Below, piece by piece: positions 8,106-32,259 of a DNA stretch of 64,000 nucleotides. The position numbers and the translations under genes are program-made. The notes beneath the pieces were generated by a model that ran no database searches, was not told the DNA's origin, and saw only the letters and a list, made by a program, of their open reading frames with translations. Every line of letters begins with the position of its first letter. The stretch's first letter is position 1. Where the stretch lies: contig NZ_OY762512.1 in NCBI RefSeq assembly GCF_963665995.1, positions 3,596,001 to 3,660,000 of the forward strand, read 5' to 3'. This DNA comes from Pleurocapsa sp. FMAR1. Its GTDB lineage: Bacteria; Cyanobacteriota; Cyanobacteriia; Cyanobacteriales; Xenococcaceae.

Positions 8106-9377
8106 TTAAGATTCTGGTTGATTAGATTCTGGTTTAACGGGCGCACCATCTCGCAGCTTGAGGATGTTCGAGACGGCAATGCGATCGCCTGTTTCTAGTC
8201 CAGAAGTGACCTGATAACTATTGTCCTGAATCGGTCCCAACTCTACGGGGGTCATGTTAACTACCTGTTTATCGTTTTTGTTAGGTTCATTGTTTAACTG
8301 ATAGACAAATTCCTTTCCTCCCGTGCGAGAAATCGCCCCAGTCGGAACTAAAATTCCGCGCTCGGTGTCCCAAGTAAGACGTGCCTGCACATATTGTCCA
8401 TTTCGCAATTCACCTTCGTTCTTAAAACGTGCTCTTGCTAAAATAGTTTGGTTTTCTGGGTCAACCGTTGGCGAGATAAAGGTAAGCTTACCTGTAGATA
8501 ATTTTTCTTTGCTGGTAGGATCGATTAAATCTAACGGTAAACCTAGCTTAAGCTGGTTTGCTCGACTCGAAGGGACTTGAATATTTAAGAATAGCTCATC
8601 TGATTGGGTTATTCTCGCCACCACAGATTGACCAGCACTTACATAAGCTCCCTCCTTCACAGGAAAATTATCTATAACTCCAGCTATAGGAGCTTTAATT
8701 GTCTTAAAACCCGTACTTACCGAAGAAGCATCCGCCTTTGCCTGTGCCTGACGAATATTAGTTTTTGCTTGGTTTATTTGAACTTCGGCGGTAGAAACAT
8801 CTTGTTCTGCGCTAATTAAATCGTTTTTTGCTGCTTCGGCTTTCTGTAATGTTTCGTCTAAGCGGACTTGTGCCACTCCACCTTCTTCAAACAGCTTCTG
8901 CACGCGCGGTACATACTTACTAACTAAATCGTAGTTAGTTTTTGCACTATTGCGTTTAGCTTTAGCAATGTCGAGTTGCTTAAGAGCATTTTGATAATCG
9001 TCTTTGGCTACATTGACCCCTTCTAAAGCTGCTTGATAGTTGGGTGCGCTTTCTCCAGGCTCTAGCTCCATGATGGTTTGCCCTGCCTCGACTCGTTCCC
9101 CAGCCTCAACTAAAATCTTTTTAATGCGTCCTTGAATTTCGGGATTAACCTCAACGATTTTAACCGCTTCTAAGTTACCGACAAATTCCGAGCGATCGCC
9201 AATTGTAGCGGACTGTAATTTTGCTATTTTAACGGGTATAGCACTTGCCTCAGTATTTTCCTTGGCATCAGTGGCATCTGAGCTAGAATTGCAGGCAGTA
9301 CTCAAAAATGAAATCGATAGGGTTGCTCCCAATAGGACAGGAGATAAACGCCTTTTAATAGTCGTTCTAACTTTCAT
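8106..9377 (-). CDS. RND efflux membrane fusion (periplasmic adaptor) lipoprotein
   Basis: AcrA/MexA-type adaptor linking an RND pump to an outer-membrane channel. It has a lipoprotein signal peptide with lipobox LSTAC and predicted lipidated Cys29. A lipoyl/barrel-sandwich half motif follows (IKKILVEAGERVEAGQTIMELE), then an alpha-helical hairpin of about residues 105-215 rich in Ala, Lys and Gln, then the second lipoyl half (TIKAPIAGVIDNFPVKEGAYVSAG), and beta-barrel and membrane-proximal domains to residue 423. The gene precedes the pump gene on the same strand, the usual order. The upstream region (9378-9480) should hold the operon promoter, but no clear operator was seen. Confidence 0.93.
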   Translation of the reverse strand: MKVRTTIKRRLSPVLLGATLSISFLSTACNSSSDATDAKENTEASAIPVKIAKLQSATIGDRSEFVGNLEAVKIVEVNPEIQGRIKKILVEAGERVEAGQTIMELEPGESAPNYQAALEGVNVAKDDYQNALKQLDIAKAKRNSAKTNYDLVSKYVPRVQKLFEEGGVAQVRLDETLQKAEAAKNDLISAEQDVSTAEVQINQAKTNIRQAQAKADASSVSTGFKTIKAPIAGVIDNFPVKEGAYVSAGQSVVARITQSDELFLNIQVPSSRANQLKLGLPLDLIDPTSKEKLSTGKLTFISPTVDPENQTILARARFKNEGELRNGQYVQARLTWDTERGILVPTGAISRTGGKEFVYQLNNEPNKNDKQVVNMTPVELGPIQDNSYQVTSGLETGDRIAVSNILKLRDGAPVKPESNQPES

Positions 9378-9589
9378 GTAAACTAAAATATTTTAAACGT
9401 TAATACTTCTCTCTAGATATTTTCTACCGTCTATGTTCTATATTCGCGGAGATAGGGCGAGCGACGATCGTGCTATTGATAAAAATTATTCTTTTTAGGC
9501 TTGAGTTAAACAGAGGCTCATTCTCAAGCCAGAACAAACGAACTGCACCCATGCAGTAGAAGATAAGTTTGGCATTGCCGAATTGAGAT

Positions 9590-9652
9590 TTGATTCCCCG
9601 GCATCGCGTCGCGCCCCCCTACCCTTAGAATTGCCTGTAAGGGGGCATTTGA
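9590..9652. repeat. GC-rich intergenic repeat fragment
   Basis: Short GC-rich block (attccccggcatcgcgtcgc, then a C-run and taagggggcattt) sharing words such as ccccggcat and gggggcattt with the repeat cluster at 7740-8070. It is probably another copy of the same interspersed family, near the start of the 860-bp gene-poor stretch 9378-10238. Confidence 0.45.
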
Positions 9653-9697
9653 GAACTAAAAAATATATAGATTCATGTTTGAATTCAACAATGACGA

Positions 9698-9896
9698 TTA
9701 ACGATAATAAGTAACGCCACGGTATTTCAATTTGGTTTTCTGTTGAGATTTAAGAGCTTTGTCTTTTTCAATTTGTAAAGTTAAATCCCCATAGCGATCG
9801 CGTTTGCTATTATCCAAACACCGACAATCTTCTAAAAATTCTTTTTTATGGTCATACCAAAATGCGAGCGGCTCGAATACAGTTTTCGCGCTAGAT
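9698..9896 (-). pseudogene. Possible remnant of a DUF4278-type small protein
   Basis: Reading leftwards from about 9896, an open frame encodes a charged stretch (FEPLAFWYDHKKEFLEDCR) and ends LKYRGVTYYR before a TAA at 9698-9700. The ending resembles the L-x-YRG-x-x-Y motif of cyanobacterial DUF4278 proteins, also seen intact at 15452-15637. There is no ATG, GTG or TTG in the first part of the frame, and an upstream stop lies just before it. It is therefore either the tail of a broken gene or a gene with a lost start. Confidence 0.35.
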
Positions 9897-10211
9897 TTAC
9901 TTAATATATTTTATCCAGGGAAATTTAGGATTGATACCCACTGACAAAGAATTCCCTCGATAGACAATCTCTAAGTTATAAGGCTTAATAGCAGTTTTTC
10001 TTTCTACTGCTTTTTTCAAAAAGACAACAATACCAGAATAAGAGTTAAATTCCTGCAAATCTTTTTTCAAAATCAAAATACAGGGTATTCTATTACAATT
10101 AATAAAAGTTAGCCAGTGATAGTCACAGATTACTCCGCCACCTCCGACATGAACGGACAGACATATGTGGAGGTGCGCCTTGGTACTGCGATCGTTGGTT
10201 AAAACATACAC
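9897..10211 (-). CDS. Doubtful hypothetical ORF (104 aa)
   Basis: Open frame of unknown nature in the spacer upstream of ndhC. The C-terminal half ([20 protein letters not shown]) looks protein-like, the N-terminal half less so. It ends next to the DUF4278-like remnant in another frame, so both could be pieces of one decayed gene. No Shine-Dalgarno sequence or family motif supports it. Confidence 0.25.
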
Positions 10212-10238
10212 AATTTACTAGGGAGTAATAAATCAAAA

Positions 10239-10601
10239 TTGTTTGTTCTCAATGGCTATGAATATTTCTTGGGTTTCTTACTTATCTGTAGTGCAGTTCC
10301 AGCCCTAGCTCTAACTGCTTCTAAACTACTAAGACCCAGTAACGGCGGTCCTGAACGTCAAACAACTTACGAATCTGGAATGGAACCTATTGGGGGAGCC
10401 TGGATTCAATTTAATATCCGTTATTATATGTTCGCTTTGGTTTTCGTTGTCTTTGATGTAGAAACAGTATTTTTATATCCCTGGGCAGTAGCTTTCAGCC
10501 GCTTAGGATTGTTAGCATTTGTAGAAGCATTAATATTTATTGCCATCTTGGTAGTTGCTTTAGTATACGCGTGGAGAAAAGGAGCTTTGGAATGGTCATG
10601 A
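10239..10601 (+). CDS. ndhC: NAD(P)H-quinone oxidoreductase subunit 3 (NdhC)
   Basis: Membrane subunit of the cyanobacterial NDH-1 complex, which moves electrons from ferredoxin to plastoquinone in respiration, cyclic electron flow and CO2 uptake. It is 120 residues with three transmembrane helices. The family signature [18 protein letters not shown] includes the quinone-channel loop, and [16 protein letters not shown] carries the conserved acidic residues of helix 2. It ends KGALEWS. The start is TTG at 10239, preceded by gggag; the encoded [13 protein letters not shown] matches the family N-terminus. First gene of ndhC-ndhK-ndhJ; its TGA overlaps the ndhK start region. Confidence 0.97.
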
Positions 10602-11326
10602 ATTCCCAAACATTTGAACAACAGCAAGCAGAAAAAATTCTTAATCCGATTAACCCGACCAAGGTCACTCAGGATTTATCAGAAAATGTCATTTTAACTA
10701 CGGTAGACGATCTTTATAATTGGGCAAAACTCTCTAGCCTGTGGCCCATGCTATATGGTACAGCCTGTTGCTTTATTGAATTTGCAGCTTTAATTGGCTC
10801 TAGATTTGATTTTGACCGCTATGGTTTAGTCCCTCGTTCAAGTCCTCGCCAATCGGATTTGATTATTACCGCAGGTACAATCACTATGAAAATGGCTCCT
10901 GCTTTAGTCCGACTTTATGAGGGAATGCCTGAACCCAAGTATGTAATTGCTATGGGTGCTTGTACTATCACAGGAGGAATGTTTAGTACCGACTCTACTA
11001 CCGCAGTCAGAGGAGTAGATAAATTAATTCCCGTGGATGTATATATTCCTGGCTGTCCTCCTCGTCCAGAGGCTATTTTTGATGCCATCATCAAGCTACG
11101 CAAGAAGATTTCTAATCAATCTTTACAGGAGCGAGCCGAAGTTTTAGAGCAGACCCATCGTTACTACAGCACTGCACACAACATGAAGGCTGTAGAGCCA
11201 ATTTTAACTGGTAAATACGTGCAGTCTCAAACTCGTCAAGCACCACCTAGGAAGCTCGCCGAAGCAATGGGAATGCCCTTACCTGCAATAGAGTCAGCAG
11301 AAAAAGAAGAGGTAGAACGTGGTTGA
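10592..11326 (+). CDS. ndhK: NAD(P)H-quinone oxidoreductase subunit K (NdhK)
   Basis: Peripheral-arm subunit (PSST/NuoB family) holding the [4Fe-4S] cluster N2, the last cluster before plastoquinone. Cluster cysteines are in [20 protein letters not shown] and PGCPPRPEA; the quinone-site Arg-rich loop [10 protein letters not shown] is present. I chose the ATG at 10592 because AAGGAG ends about eight bases upstream and the frame then reads [11 protein letters not shown] 10598 is the alternative. An earlier GTG at 10571 lies within ndhC without family similarity. It overlaps the ndhC stop by several bases, which implies translational coupling. About 244 residues, normal for cyanobacteria. Confidence 0.96.
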
Positions 11327-20079: not shown

Positions 20080-20643
20080 TTATACGATTCTGTAGCGATC
20101 GCCTAAAGAAATTCCATTAACATTACCACGAAACCTTACCATTGCTTCGCTAGAGTTAAATTGCAAAGCAATTTGAAATACGGTCATCTTTTTTTGTACT
20201 GCCCACAATAAACCATGTCTGGGAATCTGCAAACATCCACCTAGATATGTTGCCTCATCTTCGTCTTGTTGACGGCGTTGAAAAAGTCCTGTTTTTGGAT
20301 CTCTGTCTACCATTTTGTGTTTGAGTATTATGTGAGCGAATTCGTGCATAAGATTGGATTGCTGACGTACAGGCACATGACGAGAATTGTGAACGATCCA
20401 TAATGGATTTTGACGAATAATTCCTGCTGACCAGTTTTTATCAGGATCGCTGAGTAACTTAATAGATTCTGAGTCGGCATTAGGAAATGTTTCAGCAGTA
20501 AAAACTTCTGCTTCAAAATGCTTGGCTAAAATTGTGGCTGGTAACGTCTCAAAAGCTTTGAAACCCAACATACTGCGCTTTTTAGATGCGATCGCTTCTA
20601 ATCTTTGTCGGTTTTCAGTCGTTAAACTTTTAATTAATCCCAC
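20080..20643 (-). CDS. ImmA/IrrE-family metallopeptidase
   Basis: Putative zinc protease of 187 residues with motif HEFAH in NLMHEFAHIILKHK and a downstream acidic helix (QQDEDEATYLGG) that supplies the third metal ligand in this family. Members cleave a cognate XRE-type repressor, as ImmA does for ImmR and IrrE for DdrO. An XRE regulator is encoded immediately upstream with a gap of only six bases, so the two form a classic pair. They are divergent from the truncated pPIWI-associated helicase. Whether they control it is inference. The spacer 19846-20079 holds no recognisable gene. Confidence 0.85.
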   Translation of the reverse strand: MGLIKSLTTENRQRLEAIASKKRSMLGFKAFETLPATILAKHFEAEVFTAETFPNADSESIKLLSDPDKNWSAGIIRQNPLWIVHNSRHVPVRQQSNLMHEFAHIILKHKMVDRDPKTGLFQRRQQDEDEATYLGGCLQIPRHGLLWAVQKKMTVFQIALQFNSSEAMVRFRGNVNGISLGDRYRIV

Positions 20644-20649
20644 TTGTAA

Positions 20650-21006
20650 TTATTCCTTTTCATCTTTATTTTGGGATAAGTCTTTGTATGCTGCTTTAAC
20701 TAAAGACGCTAAAGCATTAGCGATCGCAGGATCGAGGTTTTTATCGGCACGTAGTTGAATTGAAATAGCTTCAGCAGTTTCTATGTTCTCTTCCTCTGTA
20801 TCCTTGATTAGCTCATTCAATGGCACTTCTAGCCAGTCACAAATAGCTAAAAATGTATCCATGTCAGGAGTTTTGCCATTTTCTACCCGCGAAATAGTTG
20901 AAGGGCTAACATTGCCAATTTCTTTTGCTGTTTCTCGTAAACCGCGAGAACCACGCTTACTACGCACTAGGCTAGCTAATCTTTCGATATCTAGATAACT
21001 TCCCAT
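20650..21006 (-). CDS. XRE-family transcriptional regulator
   Basis: Repressor-like DNA-binding protein of 118 residues. The N-terminal helix-turn-helix runs from LASLVRSKRGSRGLRETAKE to STISRVENGKTPDMDTFLAI. A C-terminal helical part (AIANALASLVKAAYKDLSQN) probably serves dimerisation or protease recognition. I chose the ATG at 21006 (MGSYLDIERL); the longer frame to 21063 adds 19 residues unlike any XRE protein. It is the likely target of the adjacent ImmA/IrrE protease. Its 5' end is about 90 bases from the divergent helicase frame, so one spacer may hold both promoters. Confidence 0.85.
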   Translation of the reverse strand: MGSYLDIERLASLVRSKRGSRGLRETAKEIGNVSPSTISRVENGKTPDMDTFLAICDWLEVPLNELIKDTEEENIETAEAISIQLRADKNLDPAIANALASLVKAAYKDLSQNKDEKE

Positions 21007-21097
21007 AATGCTATTTTGTTTTACAGAAATATTTTTGTTTCTTAGTTGATACGGCAAAAACAAAGAGTGTATATTTTATGAAACGATTGTATCGCTT

Positions 21098-23266
21098 GTG
21101 AGAAATAGAGAAGGTAAGTACGAACAGTCTGATATTGTGGTGTTCGATGAAGCAGATACGATTATTGAATGGTTTGATAAAGTATATGCAGAACAAGTAA
21201 CCCTAACTAATAGAAGCAGAGACGGCGTTTTTGATATTACTGGGGTTAAAACCGAACAATCCAACCGAATTGAAACTTTGCGATCGCCTTTAAAGGCTAG
21301 ATGGAGTGCAGTACAAAGAAATGCCCAAACAGCAATTGAAGCCACTCTTACATTACTCGGCGAAGATTTAGGGCAAAAAATTCTACAAGACTGGGTACAA
21401 CAAGGTTATTTTACGCCGCACGTGCTTTTTTACAAGTTAGCACGTCGTTTAGCGGGATTAGAAGAATACGATTCTTATGCCAAATCGTCACAGCAACTAA
21501 TGGCAGATGAGGGAAGAATACAACCCATGATGGAAATTGTGGATTATTTTCTCAAAGACGATCCCGTAATGAGACGTAGAAGTTCCAATTCTGCAACAAC
21601 TGGACTGTTAGAAATCGTGCAACTTATCAACAACAGGGGCGAAAGTGCTACCGATGAAGAGATTTATAATGATTGTCATAATTGGATAACTACTTTTTTT
21701 CCCAACACTCGAAGCAATTTAGATCTTTTAAAAACAGAATTAAATAACCTAAGAAATCAGCCAAACTCGGAGGATTTATATCCTTATCTAACTAAAGAAG
21801 AAGATCTCGACACTATTCAAACTCTTGCTTATCGTTTGCAGTTTACCCTAACAGTTACATTATTAGATCGCCATACCAAAATTGTCTTCTATGAATGGCA
21901 AAATCGACCTAATAATATTCGTGAACCTTCTCCCCATCGCCGAATGCCAATGGGAATGATTGATATTTTGCCGTTACCAGTTACGGGAAGACAATTCGGG
22001 ACATATTATTCTAGCAAAGACAGTAATACTCTGAGTCTGTTTGCCTATTCTAATATTGGGCGAGATTACGTACTTAATTTCCATCGCTTATTAACCGATT
22101 TTGACGGCTTGAAAGGGGCAAATGTCTTGGCACTTTCAGGAACATCTTATTTACCCGACTCTACTACTTTTCATGTGGGCGATCCTCAAGGGGTATTGAT
22201 GCCAGAAACAACGGCGCAAGAAGCGATCGCTCAAAGTGAATTTGAATTTCTACCTCAGTTTAATGAGAAGAATAAACCAATTCGCGTCTCTGGTAATTTA
22301 AGTAACAAAATACAAGCCCGTACCAAACTCACGCAGGTTGCTAAATCTCTAGTTACTCAAAATGGCAGCAATCATCTTGTTTCGGAACTACAGATACTAA
22401 AAGATTTAGGAGAAAGTAATCCCGAACTCTGGGCAGATCGCGATCGCATTTTAATTTTAGTCAACTCTTACGATCAATCTAAATGGGTAGCAGATGAATT
22501 GCGAACTTACTTACCCGATATTCGCGAACAAATCTATCATTTAGTTAATGACAACCTAGAACCAGAAAAAAACGGCAAATTCAAGCCAGGAGAGCTAAAA
22601 AGAGCAGATATCGAAACATTTGGGCAAAATGGGGGCAAAATACTAGTTGCGTCTACAAGCTCTATCGGACGTGGATTCAATATCCTTAACAGTAACGGTA
22701 AAGCAGCTTTTGGCGCAGTGTACTTTCTAACTCGTCCTTATCCTCATCCCAATGATACAGCAGCGATCGTCCAGGAATTAAATCGACGTGCCTATGAATG
22801 GCGAGATAAAGAAGATTTTATTGTTTGGCAACAAGCAGATGGAATTGCCCAAAGTGCAGAATTACTGAGAAAAACAGCAAATAATTACTGGCGTTCAGTT
22901 GAACAGCGTTCTTACTATCGAACTCTGCGAGATAATCCTGATTTATGTGCTTTTCCCCGTCATGATTTAGCAGCCACAACACTAGGCAGAATTATTCAAG
23001 CAGTAGGGCGTTTGATTCGCGGTGGTGTTCCCTTTCATGGTTATTTTGTTGACTCTGCTTGGGCAGATAATAGTGCTAAAAAGCTTGCTGCTGAAAAAGC
23101 TGGTGACGATCCAAATCAAATTGATAATGATAGCGAAGAAAATAGCTTGTTAGTCGCCACGATACTCAGAGTTTGTGATTATGCAGCAGAAGATGACTCA
23201 GTTGGGAATGCTTTATATAGACCACTTGCTGATGCTTTAGAAAATATCGAAAATGTCTTCTTCTAA
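21098..23266 (+). CDS. DinG-like superfamily II helicase of a pPIWI-RE system, lacking its N-terminus
   Basis: C-terminal three quarters of a large helicase (722 residues from the GTG at 21098). The visible sequence opens directly at motif II: VVFDEADTI, DEAD at residues 17-20. No Walker A (GxGKT) precedes it. The frame is open only from about 21050, without such a motif. Later helicase landmarks are present: GANVLALSGTSYLPD, RDRILILVNSYDQSKWVADE (motif IV-like), GKILVASTSSIGRGFN (motif V) and QAVGRLIRGG (motif VI, residues 634-643). Burroughs and colleagues described DinG-type helicases next to pPIWI-RE proteins, as here. Without motif I it should not hydrolyse ATP, so this looks like a 5' deletion whose junction abuts the XRE/ImmA pair. 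Confidence 0.75.
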   Translation: MRNREGKYEQSDIVVFDEADTIIEWFDKVYAEQVTLTNRSRDGVFDITGVKTEQSNRIETLRSPLKARWSAVQRNAQTAIEATLTLLGEDLGQKILQDWVQQGYFTPHVLFYKLARRLAGLEEYDSYAKSSQQLMADEGRIQPMMEIVDYFLKDDPVMRRRSSNSATTGLLEIVQLINNRGESATDEEIYNDCHNWITTFFPNTRSNLDLLKTELNNLRNQPNSEDLYPYLTKEEDLDTIQTLAYRLQFTLTVTLLDRHTKIVFYEWQNRPNNIREPSPHRRMPMGMIDILPLPVTGRQFGTYYSSKDSNTLSLFAYSNIGRDYVLNFHRLLTDFDGLKGANVLALSGTSYLPDSTTFHVGDPQGVLMPETTAQEAIAQSEFEFLPQFNEKNKPIRVSGNLSNKIQARTKLTQVAKSLVTQNGSNHLVSELQILKDLGESNPELWADRDRILILVNSYDQSKWVADELRTYLPDIREQIYHLVNDNLEPEKNGKFKPGELKRADIETFGQNGGKILVASTSSIGRGFNILNSNGKAAFGAVYFLTRPYPHPNDTAAIVQELNRRAYEWRDKEDFIVWQQADGIAQSAELLRKTANNYWRSVEQRSYYRTLRDNPDLCAFPRHDLAATTLGRIIQAVGRLIRGGVPFHGYFVDSAWADNSAKKLAAEKAGDDPNQIDNDSEENSLLVATILRVCDYAAEDDSVGNALYRPLADALENIENVFF

Positions 23267-23297
23267 AAAAATTTGTGTAATTAGATAAACCCTGTAG

Positions 23298-23317
23298 GGG
23301 CGAACGGCCGTTCGCCC
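23298..23317. repeat. Perfect 20-bp palindrome upstream of the pPIWI-RE gene
   Basis: gggcgaacgg followed by ccgttcgccc, a perfect inverted repeat in the spacer between the helicase and the pPIWI-RE gene. A variant with an 8-nt loop lies at 26754-26777 on the other side of the gene. It may act as a terminator-like hairpin or simply be an interspersed repeat. Confidence 0.7.
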
Positions 23318-23396
23318 TTACCCATAACGTAATGTAATTATTTTCAATAAATATTATGCAAAAAAAAACAATTCTAATGTAGCTTTACCCTCCCGT

Positions 23397-26336
23397 ATGA
23401 ATTTAGCGGAAAACCCATTTGCTGATTTAAAAATTGCCGTGTTAATGTTTCCTTATTCTAGGGAGGTTCGAGATTTTTGTAACGATATCCAAAGAGTACT
23501 ACGTAAAAAAGAGAAAGAACCTTTTCCTTATCGACAATTAAATAATGGTTTACTTGCCTGTAGTTCAACTTTGACTTATGGTTTTGAATGGTTAGAAACC
23601 ATAGATTATGTTCGTCAATATCGCGCATTAGCTGTTGGTAAATCTGAAAATATTTTAGACAATATACCCACACCACAACAGATACACGATCTGATTTTTA
23701 CTTGGGCGCAAACTTGGACAAGACAATTTTTAAATAGGCGAGGTAATAAAGATGAGATCGAATCAGTATGCGATCGCTTTTTAGATGCTGTTGATATTTT
23801 CCCCGAAGATTGGCAATGGGAATATATTCAACCAGCAACTTTAATCGAAGATATTAATTCTAATAACGGTTTGGGATATCAGGCGATTCCCAGTTTACTT
23901 GCGACTTTATTACACGAAAAAACTATTACTATCAAGTTAGAAAATATAGAGCAAAAAATTATTTGGCGTAAAGTACAAAACGGTTGTTCGGGTAAAACGG
24001 GATTACATTTAGTCAGTCAGCCTTTTAAAGTTAACTATATCGAAAAAAATGATCGGGATGGAACGGTTAAAGAACAAGAAGGTTATTATGCCTATACCCT
24101 AAATTTATATTTACATACTCAAGCAGGAAGATTTAATGATCGAGGTAATTTAAAGCCTTGGATATTTTTACACCTCGGTTGTCAAAGATACGCCGATGAA
24201 CCTTTAGTAAAACATAATTTTGGGCGAAATATTTCTGTCTTAATAGGAATGAATACCGCCCGTATAGATAACTATCCTACTGATTCAATTTTAGTTAAGT
24301 TGACTACCGATCGCGATAATGTTAAACAATGGCAAGAACAGTTACCAGATTTGCTAGCTGCATTCAAAGCACGTCCTCTTATTAAGCCACAGGAAATATT
24401 CAACAATCCTAAAAAATATGGCAATTTAGATAATGCTAAAAAGTGGAGTAATGATGAATATTATCTTATTCATACTGAAGGCTACAAATACAGGGAAGAA
24501 GGGCAAAAAAGCGGCGGACACGGGCATCATATCGATACTGGTTTTAGTTTAAAAGAACGTGCAGATATTACTAGTAAAGTCTTGCAATTATTAAATTGCA
24601 CATTAATTGCAGACAAACCAATGGAATGCGATATTAAAGCACCAACTGGTAAAAAAATGCCTTTGGCAATGCGCGATTATGATTATCTAGGTAAATCTTT
24701 ATTGCCTTCTGCGCTATCAAAACATAGTGAAGAGGAACAACAAGAAAAAGTAAAGGAAAAACAGACTATTATCGTAAATGCTATTAAACGAGCCTCTAAT
24801 AATAATCCAATTTATTTATTTGTAATTTATCGCGAAGAACACACTAAAAGATTAGTCAATCAGCAATTACGATAATCTTTATTGTTACGAGAGGGCGATT
24901 GCTTTCCAGAACATATTACCGTTACAGATGTTTTGATTGAAGACTCCACTCTTTTAGAAAGAATATCTGTAAGTGGCTTGTCTTCAGTCAACAGAAACTT
25001 CGATCAAGAAATAAGAAAAGGGCATACCAAAAAACGTCAGGCTTGGCAGAATTTTTTAAAGAATAATGTTCTCAACAAAGTAAAAAGTAAAAACGACTCA
25101 AGTATTTTTGCAATTATTGAAATAGGAACAATTCAAAAAATAAAAGGAGTAGACCCCAAACAAAACATTAGAGGTGCAGTACGAGAAGCTTGTGTCTTAG
25201 AAAATATCAATTCTCAGATGCTACAAACAGTAAAGCCAACCAAGAAAGATGATAAAGTTTATAGTCCACAAACAAAAGGAAGAACATTAAACGCTGTATT
25301 AGATGTAACTTTGCGCCATACAGGTACATTGTACGGTTTACCTTCAGAAGTTTACCAACTAGCAAAAATACCAGAAAATATTGCTCACAAATTAGATATA
25401 ATTGCCTTTTGTCGAGTGCAAAAAAACAATTTTATCGGTAGAAATCAGTTTCAATATGCGATCGCAGTACGTCTTAGTGCTACAGGAACAGTAGACGTTT
25501 TGCTTCCTAACCATAAACAATGGATTCCTTATACACAAGCAGGAATAGAAATAGGAAAATTATTTCATGAAGTAAGAAAAGCGAGAAATACTCAAGGCAG
25601 CGATCGCAAAATATTAGAACAGGTTCAAATGAAGGGCGGAGATTTAGTAAAGTTTGTCGCCGATACATTGGTAAATCATTTAAAAAATCCTACTGTTGTT
25701 TTAATTGAAGCTGATGTTTGGCGTAACGAACGTAGCAAAAATGGAAGCGGTAATCAGGCTTGGTTTCAATTAAAAAATGAATATTTATTAGAGCAACGAG
25801 ATATTTTAAACTTTAGTCATGTAATTGGTCACAACTGCCAATATAAAAGAGACGACGAAAAACTGAACAATTTGTTAACTGTAATTCGCCTTCGTAGCGG
25901 AAAGGAGACACCTCAGTATGTTACTAATAGACAGGAATGGAATGAAGATTCTGAAACCAAAGACTTTACTCAATTAAGTGGATTTATAGATAAAACAGCC
26001 CCAGAATTATTACATTATTTTTCAATAGGTAGAATACCTAGCACTCAAAAAGGGCAAAATGAACCCCAAGCTAGAAATTTGTCCAAAATAGAACATCAAG
26101 ATGATATCTACGCAGCCAACATTGCTTACAAACATCAGCAAATGATTGAAATATTGCCCTTTTTTGTTCGCGCCGATCTTCAGACAGAAAAAAGCCTAAA
26201 AGCACTTTGTCGAGTACCACACTATTTAAGAACATCTCCCGCATTTACAAAAGGAAATATTCATCAACCATACCCAATGCACCTAGGAATTGATCTAATC
26301 CAAGATCTTCTATGTATTTTAGATTTGGATTTTTAG
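23397..26336 (+). pseudogene. pPIWI-RE family protein (Argonaute/PIWI relative) split by an in-frame TAA
   Basis: Prokaryotic PIWI homologue of the RE clade, predicted to bind guide or R-loop nucleic acid in an inter-genome conflict system. Two frames, 23397-24875 (492 aa) and 24882-26336 (484 aa), lie in exactly the same phase, separated only by TAA at 24873-24875. Read through it gives about 978 residues, the expected size. The first part corresponds to the N-terminal pPIWI-RE module (DUF3962-like). The second holds the RNase H-fold PIWI domain, with a strand-helix TVVLIEADVWRNERSKNGSG whose Arg (codon 776 of the joined frame) is a candidate for the signature R. The partner helicase lies upstream. 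The usual restriction-endonuclease partner is not seen. A single substitution explains the split; the TTG after it could allow separate translation. Confidence 0.72.
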
Positions 26337-29065: not shown

Positions 29066-29570
29066 CGGCGTTATTCTTAAATATACTTACTCAATTATTA
29101 ATATTTTGACATTAAATTTCCCAGAGGGACGAAGATCGCCACTAATATCCTAAGTCAGAGCAAACTAATAACTACTATTTAAGCGATCGCTACTTGTTAG
29201 CATAGACTAAAGCAAGCGAATATTTGTCGTTATGGATTTGATCAAATGAGTATTTATATACTGATACACGGTTCGTGGCACGGTAGCTGGTGCTGGAACA
29301 AAGTAGCAACTCTGTTGGAGCAGGCTGGACACAAAGCAATTGCACCTGACTTACCCAGTCACGGTGATGATCGGACACCCATCTTTGAAGTTACTTTGCA
29401 AAGCTATGAGGATCGTGTCTGCGAAGTAGTAAAAGCGCAAACAGAGCCAGTTATTTTAGTGGGGCATAGCATGGCTGGAATAGTCATTACCCAAGCTGCC
29501 GAACAATGCCCAGCTAAGATCGAGAAGGGTAGAGTCGAGGGGAGCTATTACGCTCCGCCCCTCTCTTTTA

Positions 29571-29604
29571 GATCTGTACGTGCGACTTTCACCGCATACG
29601 GCTC
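29571..29604 (-). ncRNA. Group II intron domain V
   Basis: 34-nt catalytic hairpin beginning GAGCCGUAUGCGG on the minus strand with a GAAA loop and continuing UCGCACGUAC. The usual terminal strand CGGUUC is CAGAUC here. That gives two mismatches in the lower stem, one at the base normally pairing with the G of the AGC catalytic triad. Confidence 0.8.
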
Positions 29605-29614
29605 CCGAATATCT

Positions 29615-31141
29615 TTAGTCTTTCCGACCTTTGCCCATGTGTGTATAGTGGTGACAGCTTCTGTGATTGGCGATTAGATTCTCCCTGTCCCAGTTGTTGT
29701 GATTACCATCAATATGATGTAATTCTACTTTTTCTCCGTAGAGAAATTTCAATCCACAATATCCACATGAATGATTTTGTTTTCTAAGCGTGCTTGCTAT
29801 TGCTCCGTCGTAATATTTACTGTTTCTCTTTGCCCAGTAGTTTATGTCTCCATCAAAAGGAGTCTTTTCTCCTTTGACGTTGACAAATTTGTTCTCTGAG
29901 TAACTAACAGTTGGGAAGGCGTTTTTGACCATTTTGACTGCTTTATAGCGGTTTATAGATTTTTGTTTTAAGAACACTTTGAATGTTCTTTGGGATAATC
30001 TCCCTAAATTGAATCTTGAACCGTCCATCTTGCAGAATTTATGGTAATTGCGCCATCCCCTAACGACAGGCGCTAGCTTTGACACTTTTGTTTCCGCATC
30101 ATAGTTAGAGTTGTTGACGATGTATTTAACTTTGTTACGAAAAGCTTTGAAGTTGTCCACTGATGGGATGCTCCTAAACTTGCCGTTTTTTTGGACGTAA
30201 AATTTCCATCCAAGAAAGTCAAAACCATCTGTCGAAGCCGTTACTTTGGTCTTCTTTTGGTTAACTTCCATTCCTCGTTTGGCAAGAAATTCTTCAACTT
30301 TGGCAAGTATTTGTTCTGCACTATCTTCTGGTTTTAGTATGAAAACCATGTCATCCGCATAACGAGTACACTTAGATGTCCTTTGTTCCCCAATTAGTTC
30401 TATGCCGTTCAAAGCAATGTTAGCCAATAATGGGCTTACAACTCCACCTTGCGGTGTACCTTGATTGGGAAACTGTGGGTTAACTCCGATTTTAAGACAT
30501 CGACGTATTCCGTCTATAATAAAATCGGGAGCAATAACTATGTCTAAGATGGATTTATGACTTATGCGGTCAAAGCATTTAGAGATGTCTATTTCTAGAA
30601 CTCTCTTTTTAATTCCGTTGCTTTTGCTTCTTAGATTGTTGAACAGGTTTTTTTGGGCGTCATGTGTGCCTCGTCCTGGTCTAAACCCGTAGCTTCGAGC
30701 ATGGAACGTTGCTTCGTGTGCTGGTTCTAGAGCATATTTCAGTAAACATTGATATGCTCTATCGGCTATTGTTGGTATTTTCAGTATTCGCTTGCTGCCA
30801 TCCTTTTTAGGAATGGGTATCTCGCGAAGTCCCTGGTGTACCCAAGTTTTGTAGTTCTTTCTTAGAGTTTCCTCTAAGTCAAACCTTTCCTTGAATGACA
30901 ATAATTTCTTGCCATCAATTCCAGCCGTTTTCTTTCCTGTGTTTAGTTGAGTTACTTGTCTAATTGCTAGCATCCTTGCTGAACGAGAAGATAGAATCAA
31001 CTTCTGTAGACTTTTAGCCTTAGCTTTGTCTCCTTCTCTAGTTGCTTTGTATATTCTCCTTTGGAGGCGAAATAATACTTTCTGAAATCCCTTCCAGTCG
31101 GCAAATTTCCAGTTATCGCTATAACTTATGCTATGCGTCAT
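29615..31141 (-). CDS. ltrA: Group II intron reverse transcriptase/maturase with HNH endonuclease
   Basis: Intron-encoded protein of about 508 residues, needed for splicing and retrohoming. The N-terminal RT0 region is followed by the palm, with TPQGGVVSPLLANIAL and the catalytic YADD (residues 261-264) in RYADDMVF. Maturase domain X is around LAPVVRGWRNYHKF. The C-terminal HNH nuclease has zinc-binding CGYCGLKF, then VELHHIDGNHNNWDRENL and HRSCHH. I chose ATG 31141 (MTHSISYSDNWKFADWKGFQ) with gaagg about ten bases upstream; the frame extends to 31240 into ribozyme sequence. The frame is undamaged. Confidence 0.92.
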   Translation of the reverse strand: MTHSISYSDNWKFADWKGFQKVLFRLQRRIYKATREGDKAKAKSLQKLILSSRSARMLAIRQVTQLNTGKKTAGIDGKKLLSFKERFDLEETLRKNYKTWVHQGLREIPIPKKDGSKRILKIPTIADRAYQCLLKYALEPAHEATFHARSYGFRPGRGTHDAQKNLFNNLRSKSNGIKKRVLEIDISKCFDRISHKSILDIVIAPDFIIDGIRRCLKIGVNPQFPNQGTPQGGVVSPLLANIALNGIELIGEQRTSKCTRYADDMVFILKPEDSAEQILAKVEEFLAKRGMEVNQKKTKVTASTDGFDFLGWKFYVQKNGKFRSIPSVDNFKAFRNKVKYIVNNSNYDAETKVSKLAPVVRGWRNYHKFCKMDGSRFNLGRLSQRTFKVFLKQKSINRYKAVKMVKNAFPTVSYSENKFVNVKGEKTPFDGDINYWAKRNSKYYDGAIASTLRKQNHSCGYCGLKFLYGEKVELHHIDGNHNNWDRENLIANHRSCHHYTHMGKGRKD

Positions 31142-32259
31142 AATTATTACCTTCTTAGTTGAACATTGTTCTGATATCCTTGAGGCGCGGAAAGCAAAGC
31201 TTTCCCAGTCGTCGAAGACGACGATCTGAGTGCTTCGCACTCTGCACGCCTCATCCTACCCTCTGCTTGGTTTTCCGCTACTCGTCTAGCCTATTCAGGT
31301 TTTCGATTCCTGAAACCAAGTATCAGAGTTTTTATTCGTTCCGATGGTTAGATTGACTGATGTTTTAGGGCGGTTCAATTTGTCTATTACCTTCTCAGAG
31401 AAGTAGCTTGTCAACCACAAACGCTACGAGAATAGGCGGTAATAAAGTCCATATTTGTTGTTCAGATTATGGCTCCAAATTAAGACATTTTCCTAGAACC
31501 TGTTTACCCATGACATCTCCCTATTAGCGGTAGTGTGGCTATCTGTTTTGCCTCTAATTCCGCCCTGCTGCACGCTTTACCCTGTAGGATTCCGAGCCTA
31601 CTCAGTAGTGCCAGATAAGGAGTCATCTATCTCTTAGATGGGGGGACTTTAACCTCCATCCAACTATCAGTTCAGGTTACATACAGTTTTCTCCCTGTCA
31701 TCACCTGGAAGCTTCTATTTCTCTAATTTCTAGAGTTTCGCGGCTTCAACGAATCGCACTTGGTCTACTTGTGCGCTTTGTTGCTGGAAAATGGCGAATC
31801 TGCACAGGAGAGAGATCCAGATCCAGATTCTTTGTTGTCGCCAAAGATCATCATGTCTGAAGATCACAGCTATATCACGGTTGAAGATGAATTTGTGAAG
31901 GATATCTTCTATGGGGATTGCTCTGATGAAGACGCAAGGAAGTTTAAAACGCAATTGGTACCAGAAGCTTTAGCTCCTTTTAATACGCCAGTACGCACAA
32001 CCGCAGAAAACTTTGGACGATTGCATCGGGTTTATATTGAGTCTCTTCAAGATCGGGCTATTTCGCTCTCAGCGCAGCGAAAAATGCAGGCTGCACTACC
32101 ATGCCAGCAGGTGATTACAATGAATACCAGCCACTCGCCGTTCCTTTCTAATCCTGAAGCATTAGTAACTCATTTAATTTCGCTTTAGATAAATCGATAT
32201 TGATAGCTGCCCTAAAGAACGACACGTATTTATTTTCCAACAATAATAACTAAATTATT

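Follow-up and report, generated by a model that had tools for sequence, protein, structure and literature searches.

A pPIWI-RE defence operon, probably recently inactivated, in a cyanobacterial genome

Genes and lesions at the locus

The DNA analysed here, termed the window, is a stretch of 64,000 nucleotides covering positions 3596001-3660000 of the one-contig 5.43-Mb genome (99.88% complete) of Pleurocapsa sp. FMAR1. Its GCGATCGC sites are presumably HIP1, a cyanobacterial mark, and the closest relatives of its pPIWI-RE protein, where named, belong to the Nostocales. Features of the locus are given below in window coordinates; L and G numbers denote comparison loci and genomes.

20080..20643, minus strand: M78 (IrrE/ImmA-like) metallopeptidase gene with a HEFAH motif, CapP-like (Pfam PF06114, E=5.2e-11; PADLOC capP, E=9.5e-6)
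20650..21006, minus strand: gene for an XRE-type HTH repressor-like protein (Pfam HTH_3, E=2e-9; 78% by tblastn against L011 HTH protein residues 1-116)
21046..21075, plus strand: sigma-70-like promoter candidate TTGATA-18-TATATT before the operon remnant (10/12 matches; weak evidence)
21109..21118, no strand: deletion junction; relative to the same-genus locus L010, bases 8135-10932 (2798 bases) are missing, comprising the REase gene and the start of the helicase gene
21119..23266 (ORF 21098-23266), plus strand: PprDinG helicase stump (PADLOC PprDinG profile positions 368-924/930; tblastn to homologue residues 479-1212)
23356..23368, plus strand: ATG homologous to the L010 start codon, with C and an A9 run after it; off the reading frame of the gene by one base (by-eye comparison with L010)
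23397..24872, plus strand: 5' piece of the pPIWI-RE gene, X domain (PF13111 pPIWI_RE_X, E=1.2e-21)
24873..24875, plus strand: in-frame TAA at homologue residue 504, shortly 5' of the MID domain match
24876..26336, plus strand: 3' piece of the pPIWI-RE gene, MID and RNaseH/PIWI domains (PF18157 MID_pPIWI_RE, E=1.2e-6; PF13032 RNaseH_pPIWI_RE, E=1.7e-18)

The two pieces of the pPIWI-RE gene correspond to plus-strand ORFs in the same phase, 23397-24875 (492 aa, ending in the TAA) and 24882-26336 (484 aa, starting at a TTG), both assigned to PprPIWI by PADLOC. Past the TAA the reading frame is open from 24876 for 486 codons, and because such a length would arise by chance with a probability of approximately 1.6e-17 at the base composition of the window (assuming independent bases), the downstream frame was taken to be real coding sequence. 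When the intact 989-aa homologue of L011 was used as a tblastn query, a single alignment of residues 3-988 was obtained with exactly one stop, the TAA at residue 504. A preliminary description of the locus had proposed two halves of one protein in one phase, separated by a single stop at 24873-24875 with seemingly intact sequence on either side, and the ORF coordinates and this alignment agree with it on each point. Its assignment of both halves to pPIWI-RE was likewise confirmed by Pfam, with the X domain in the 5' piece and MID and RNaseH in the 3' piece, all three matches exceeding the curated cut-offs. The pieces together thus carry X, MID and RNaseH_pPIWI_RE in that order, which intact relatives carry in one chain; five of the six scanned pPIWI-RE proteins matched all three models, L013 being without a MID match. 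The R of a V/I-R-x-R motif and the E of an E-T/V-P motif were found in the window protein and in several distant copies, in a region where the alignment is poor and one row (L047_1077) is a helicase, and these columns may be the family-naming arginine and glutamate of PMC3702460. Of the RNase H catalytic positions, an acidic one on one strand is occupied by E, while the first is indistinct; according to PMC3702460, RNase H catalytic residues are kept only in a subset of pPIWI-RE proteins.

At the intact locus L011, the HTH and M78 genes run in one direction and the genes for REase (378 aa), helicase (1212 aa) and pPIWI-RE (989 aa) in the other. The order REase-DinG-pPIWI-RE was found in L011, L013, L015, L016 and L020-L023 (families named for L011); the window has no REase and a truncated helicase. 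Blastn blocks pair window 20104-21108 with L010 7132-8134 and window 21119-26018 with L010 10933-15826, leaving a 10-base junction, and against L058 the alignment blocks stop at window 21093 and resume at 21124. The helicase stump is without approximately 480 N-terminal residues and is kept from the DEAD motif onward, so that the Walker A (residue 278) and the cysteine cluster (residues 378-435) of the L011 helicase have no counterpart. The out-of-frame start at 23356 could be replaced by the internal ATG at 23397, which aligns to L011 residue 15, with a loss of 14 residues. The claim that the gene was broken by a single TAA was therefore correct as to the stop but incomplete, since the deletion also took the REase gene and the 5' part of the helicase gene, and the start codon matching that of L010 is shifted in frame. 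Promoter-like sites numbered 17 in the region, compared with 18.7 expected in shuffles.

Homologues across the stop and the age of the break

Comparison across the stop was carried out in a clade set of 22 loci (the window, L010, L011, L058 and L013-L030), in which the duplicate L012/L027 was counted once and the scrap locus L059 was left out; L026 was cut by both contig ends, giving 21 assessable pPIWI-RE loci. The gene was undivided in 14/21 and broken in seven, by stops or frame changes in the window, L010 (stop at residue 225), L018 (residue 231) and L030, by an insert in L028, and by loss of the front in L017 (40 residues) and L024 (256 residues; the contig ends 1138 bases upstream). The column of the TAA held Asp or Glu in all 21 other distinct sequences, 0/21 having a stop there, and an orthologue from the same genus, in G401, is a frame of 991 codons with 74% identity over the 3' half. 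That homologues might consistently be two genes at this point, as the preliminary description had allowed, was not borne out, the relatives carrying single chains. The L028 gene, from Nostoc carneum NIES-2107, is interrupted by approximately 1.36 kb of other sequence (L028 11421-12781).

These comparisons bear on the suggestion that the gene is really split, with an X-domain half and a MID-PIWI half forming two subunits and the second made by re-initiation at TTG 24882, an arrangement for which short pAgos provide a comparison. The stop falls between the X and MID Pfam matches, near the start of the latter, where division would hurt least (its nearness to a domain border is extrapolated, because some residues precede the start of the Pfam MID model), and both halves are open and constrained, as those of a still-used split protein would be, the second for 486 codons. 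We nevertheless consider such a division very unlikely, since the homologues are single chains without a stop at this column and no purine-rich ribosome-binding site was seen by eye before TTG 24882; furthermore, the two in-frame starts that follow are again TTGs, the first in-frame ATG (25218) lies inside the MID match, and the operon partners are deleted. A predicted model of the L011 protein, of poor quality (mean pLDDT 47.8), would place the residue at a helix end between two strands, which also argues against a division here. We give similarly little credence to a MID-PIWI half that is produced from a start past the TAA and acts, singly or together with the X half, under the HTH/M78 switch, without helicase and REase; if true, this stripped-down Argonaute-like protein would be an Argonaute split in the making.

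A single stop with the same frame on both sides would also suit programmed read-through or recoding of the TAA, giving a full-length protein, but relatives have their in-frame stops at other positions (residues 225 and 231 of pPIWI-RE; 633 and 964 of the helicase) and in varied codons (TAA, TGA and TAG), so there is no conserved recoding site. With 0/21 other sequences bearing a stop at the column and the deletion disabling the operon anyway, recoding, which the preliminary description had offered as an option, is the least probable of the readings weighed and can be set aside almost entirely. Sequencing or assembly error was also considered. The locus is known from one assembly, an A9 run, of the homopolymer type at which errors typically occur, lies beside the start, and a further gene of the genome (L009 12807-15300) seems to carry a frameshift; the TAA, however, is a stop that leaves the frame unshifted, in a genome assembled as one contig with 99.88% completeness, the same operon carries independent damage in the form of a deletion not explicable as sequencing error, and relatives show parallel damage. 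An artefact is, accordingly, highly improbable.

The age of the break was estimated from changes unique to each of the window, L010 and L058 at 372 comparable codons after the stop, the counts being small and obtained by parsimony. Synonymous to nonsynonymous changes after the stop were 39 to 20 in the window, 45 to 26 in L058 and 28 to 38 in L010 (Fisher, window vs L058, p=0.85; window vs broken L010, p=0.012), and the stop looks young because the window counts resemble those of L058, whose pPIWI-RE is intact, unlike those of broken L010. Before the stop, the window was no different from L010 (p 0.39) or L058 (p 0.31). Omega between the window and L010 was 0.23 downstream of the stop; upstream, two parts gave 0.23 and 0.35. 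Values of 0.17-0.23 were obtained for five pairs that are intact or nearly so, one of which includes the stop-bearing L018. Together, branch counts and omega indicate that selection acted on the 3' half over most of the branch leading to the window. The helicase stump gave a ratio of 0.127, vs 0.135 in L010 and 0.171 in L058, and since this motor-less stump looks similarly constrained, constraint here records the past and cannot show present use of the 3' half. As far as sequence can tell, the breakage seems recent, as the remains, including the stump, still look constrained.

Among the options originally put forward, a recent nonsense mutation is thus the best supported, as one part of the decay of a whole operon. 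The locus very probably represents a pPIWI-RE defence operon of three genes (REase, DinG helicase, pPIWI-RE) that lost its function recently. Rather than encoding a novel type of split protein, the broken gene is most likely on its way out. No more than a truncated X-domain protein, and no functioning system, would be expected from the remnant. Viewed singly, the gene is an unremarkable pseudogene of young age; the clade-wide pattern of loss is more useful.

Operon decay in the clade and in cyanobacteria

Clade loci were gathered through close relatives and with two X-domain peptide patterns, and are therefore not a random sample. Among 17 fully visible operons, eight (L011, L013, L015, L016, L020, L021, L022 and L023) had REase, helicase and pPIWI-RE open and nine were broken (the window, L010, L014, L017, L018, L025, L028, L030 and L058), a stop five or fewer residues from the protein end being counted as a natural end (REase of L016; HTH of L030 and L058). 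Point lesions sit at different residues, and the deletions in L014, L017 and the window, together with the damage in L028, affect the same HTH-to-helicase region to differing extents. Within 27 genomes of the family to which the window's genome belongs, matches were found in four (the window, L010, L058 and L059), three of them broken at different places: in L010 the helicase is in three frames and pPIWI-RE has a TAA at residue 225 and has lost its C-terminus, and in L058 the helicase has a TAG and pPIWI-RE is intact. L059 consists only of scraps on a 3.7-kb contig. The 9/17 broken operons suggest frequent loss of pPIWI-RE systems in cyanobacteria, perhaps on account of cost; such systems being costly, loss of the operon was probably tolerated or favoured.

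Two family searches of 386 cyanobacterial genomes recovered 16 pPIWI-RE places in 14 genomes. One (G305), cut by a contig end, was excluded, and 5/15 of the others were broken (the window, G070, G042, G340 and the second place of G382). As a control, hsdR in the same 386 genomes gave at least 137 rows over the cut-off, 7 of those listed having an internal stop or a frame below 700 aa; this control is rough, as rows were counted by hand, at most two candidates were scored in most genomes and the score cut-off favours whole genes. Broken pPIWI-RE places were more frequent than broken hsdR genes among the matches listed (5/15 vs 7/137; Fisher p=0.0025), also when two fragmentary places were dropped (3/13 vs 7/137 among the matches listed; p=0.043). 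The contrast is a lead and not proof, because the two sets were gathered in unlike ways, relatives are non-independent and many genomes are drafts.

An empty site was sought in 12 same-genus genomes, of which 12 have the left and 11 the right flanking gene, and none was shown; in G400 and G401 the flanking genes are on one contig, more than 1 Mb apart, and in the other nine genomes they are on different contigs. Relatives of the L058 protein were found neither among plasmids nor, using six peptide patterns, among viral contigs.

The HTH/M78 pair and neighbouring elements

The HTH and M78 genes are transcribed divergently from the operon remnant. For the HTH gene, a longer ORF with a TTG start was replaced, on homology, by the start at 21006. 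An M78 gene lies beside 17/17 fully visible operons of the clade, and the HTH gene is full length in 14 and partial in three. The M78 frame is open at all 17 loci, which is not significant, because only about one lesion would be expected from its length (a rough estimate). In L014, L017 and L028 the damage extends to the HTH gene, which has lost its front or is broken, and M78 is still open. When the L011 HTH and M78 proteins were compared by tblastn with 11 distant pPIWI-RE loci, no match was obtained, and among 13 pPIWI-RE genomes searched M78 was near pPIWI-RE only in that of the window, G070 and G167. The figure of 3/13 indicates that the pair is a feature of this clade rather than a general companion of pPIWI-RE. 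An operator motif common to 13 HTH-operon gaps was sought, the dyad having no mismatch in L010, one in the window and two to five in the other 11 loci. To the eye, GTTTCA/TGAAAC-like half-sites recur between HTH and operon.

HTH and M78-like peptidase genes adjoin the operon as in a CapH/CapP-type regulator; in CBASS and Bub operons, CapH and CapP are likewise an HTH protein and a peptidase adjoining a defence operon, and the peptidase, activated by ssDNA, cleaves the repressor (PMC13373217). The CapP likeness is weak (capP, E=9.5e-6 for the window copy and 8.8e-4 for the L011 copy), RmrA models scoring about equally. For pPIWI-RE, PMC3702460 mentions, in the text available, fusions of HTH domains with REase and a rare fusion of a zincin-like metallopeptidase with stand-alone pPIWI-RE, so both activities have been linked to the family before; the divergent pair flanking the window operon is not described there for the three-gene system. 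Among the titles and abstracts of openly accessible papers listed for pPIWI-RE or PIWI-RE, none concerned the HTH/M78 pair or operon decay. The pair offers a testable idea for the control of the little-studied pPIWI-RE systems.

Burroughs, Iyer and Aravind 2013 (PMC3702460) propose that pPIWI-RE recognises RNA-DNA hybrids, DinG unwinds and REase cuts. The locus shares the X, MID and RNaseH domains of that three-gene system, and its intact relatives the gene order; unlike that system, the window is without REase and the helicase motor region and has a stop in pPIWI-RE. An intact pPIWI-RE of this clade would use a guide or sense RNA-DNA hybrids on invading DNA, the helicase would open the site and the REase would cut. 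By analogy with CapH/CapP, the HTH/M78 pair would hold the operon off until DNA damage activated the peptidase, which would then cleave the repressor. In the window, the deletion has taken the REase and the helicase motor region, and the nonsense codon cuts pPIWI-RE between X and MID. PsPIWI-RE of Pseudomonas stutzeri is reported as a guided nuclease (PMC10991935); it is of the same family by name alone, and the window gene is broken.

A second pPIWI-RE operon of the same genome (L009 4677-12686), distantly related and with no M78 nearby, is open throughout (REase, 450 aa; helicase, 1092 aa; pPIWI-RE, 1051 aa). A TAG in its helicase match, which begins upstream of the ATG of the 1092-aa ORF, apparently falls before that ATG. 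With this operon intact, the broken one may be needed less. A gene at L009 12807-15300, judged by eye to be glycogen-phosphorylase-like, lies in two overlapping minus-strand frames, reflecting a frameshift or an assembly error. Within window 29246-32188, a group II intron (Rfam RF00029, 29529-29606, minus strand) with a reverse-transcriptase-like ORF (29615-31240, minus strand; named by eye) seems to split a plus-strand gene that is alpha/beta-hydrolase-like, with pieces from 29246 and at 31760-32188.
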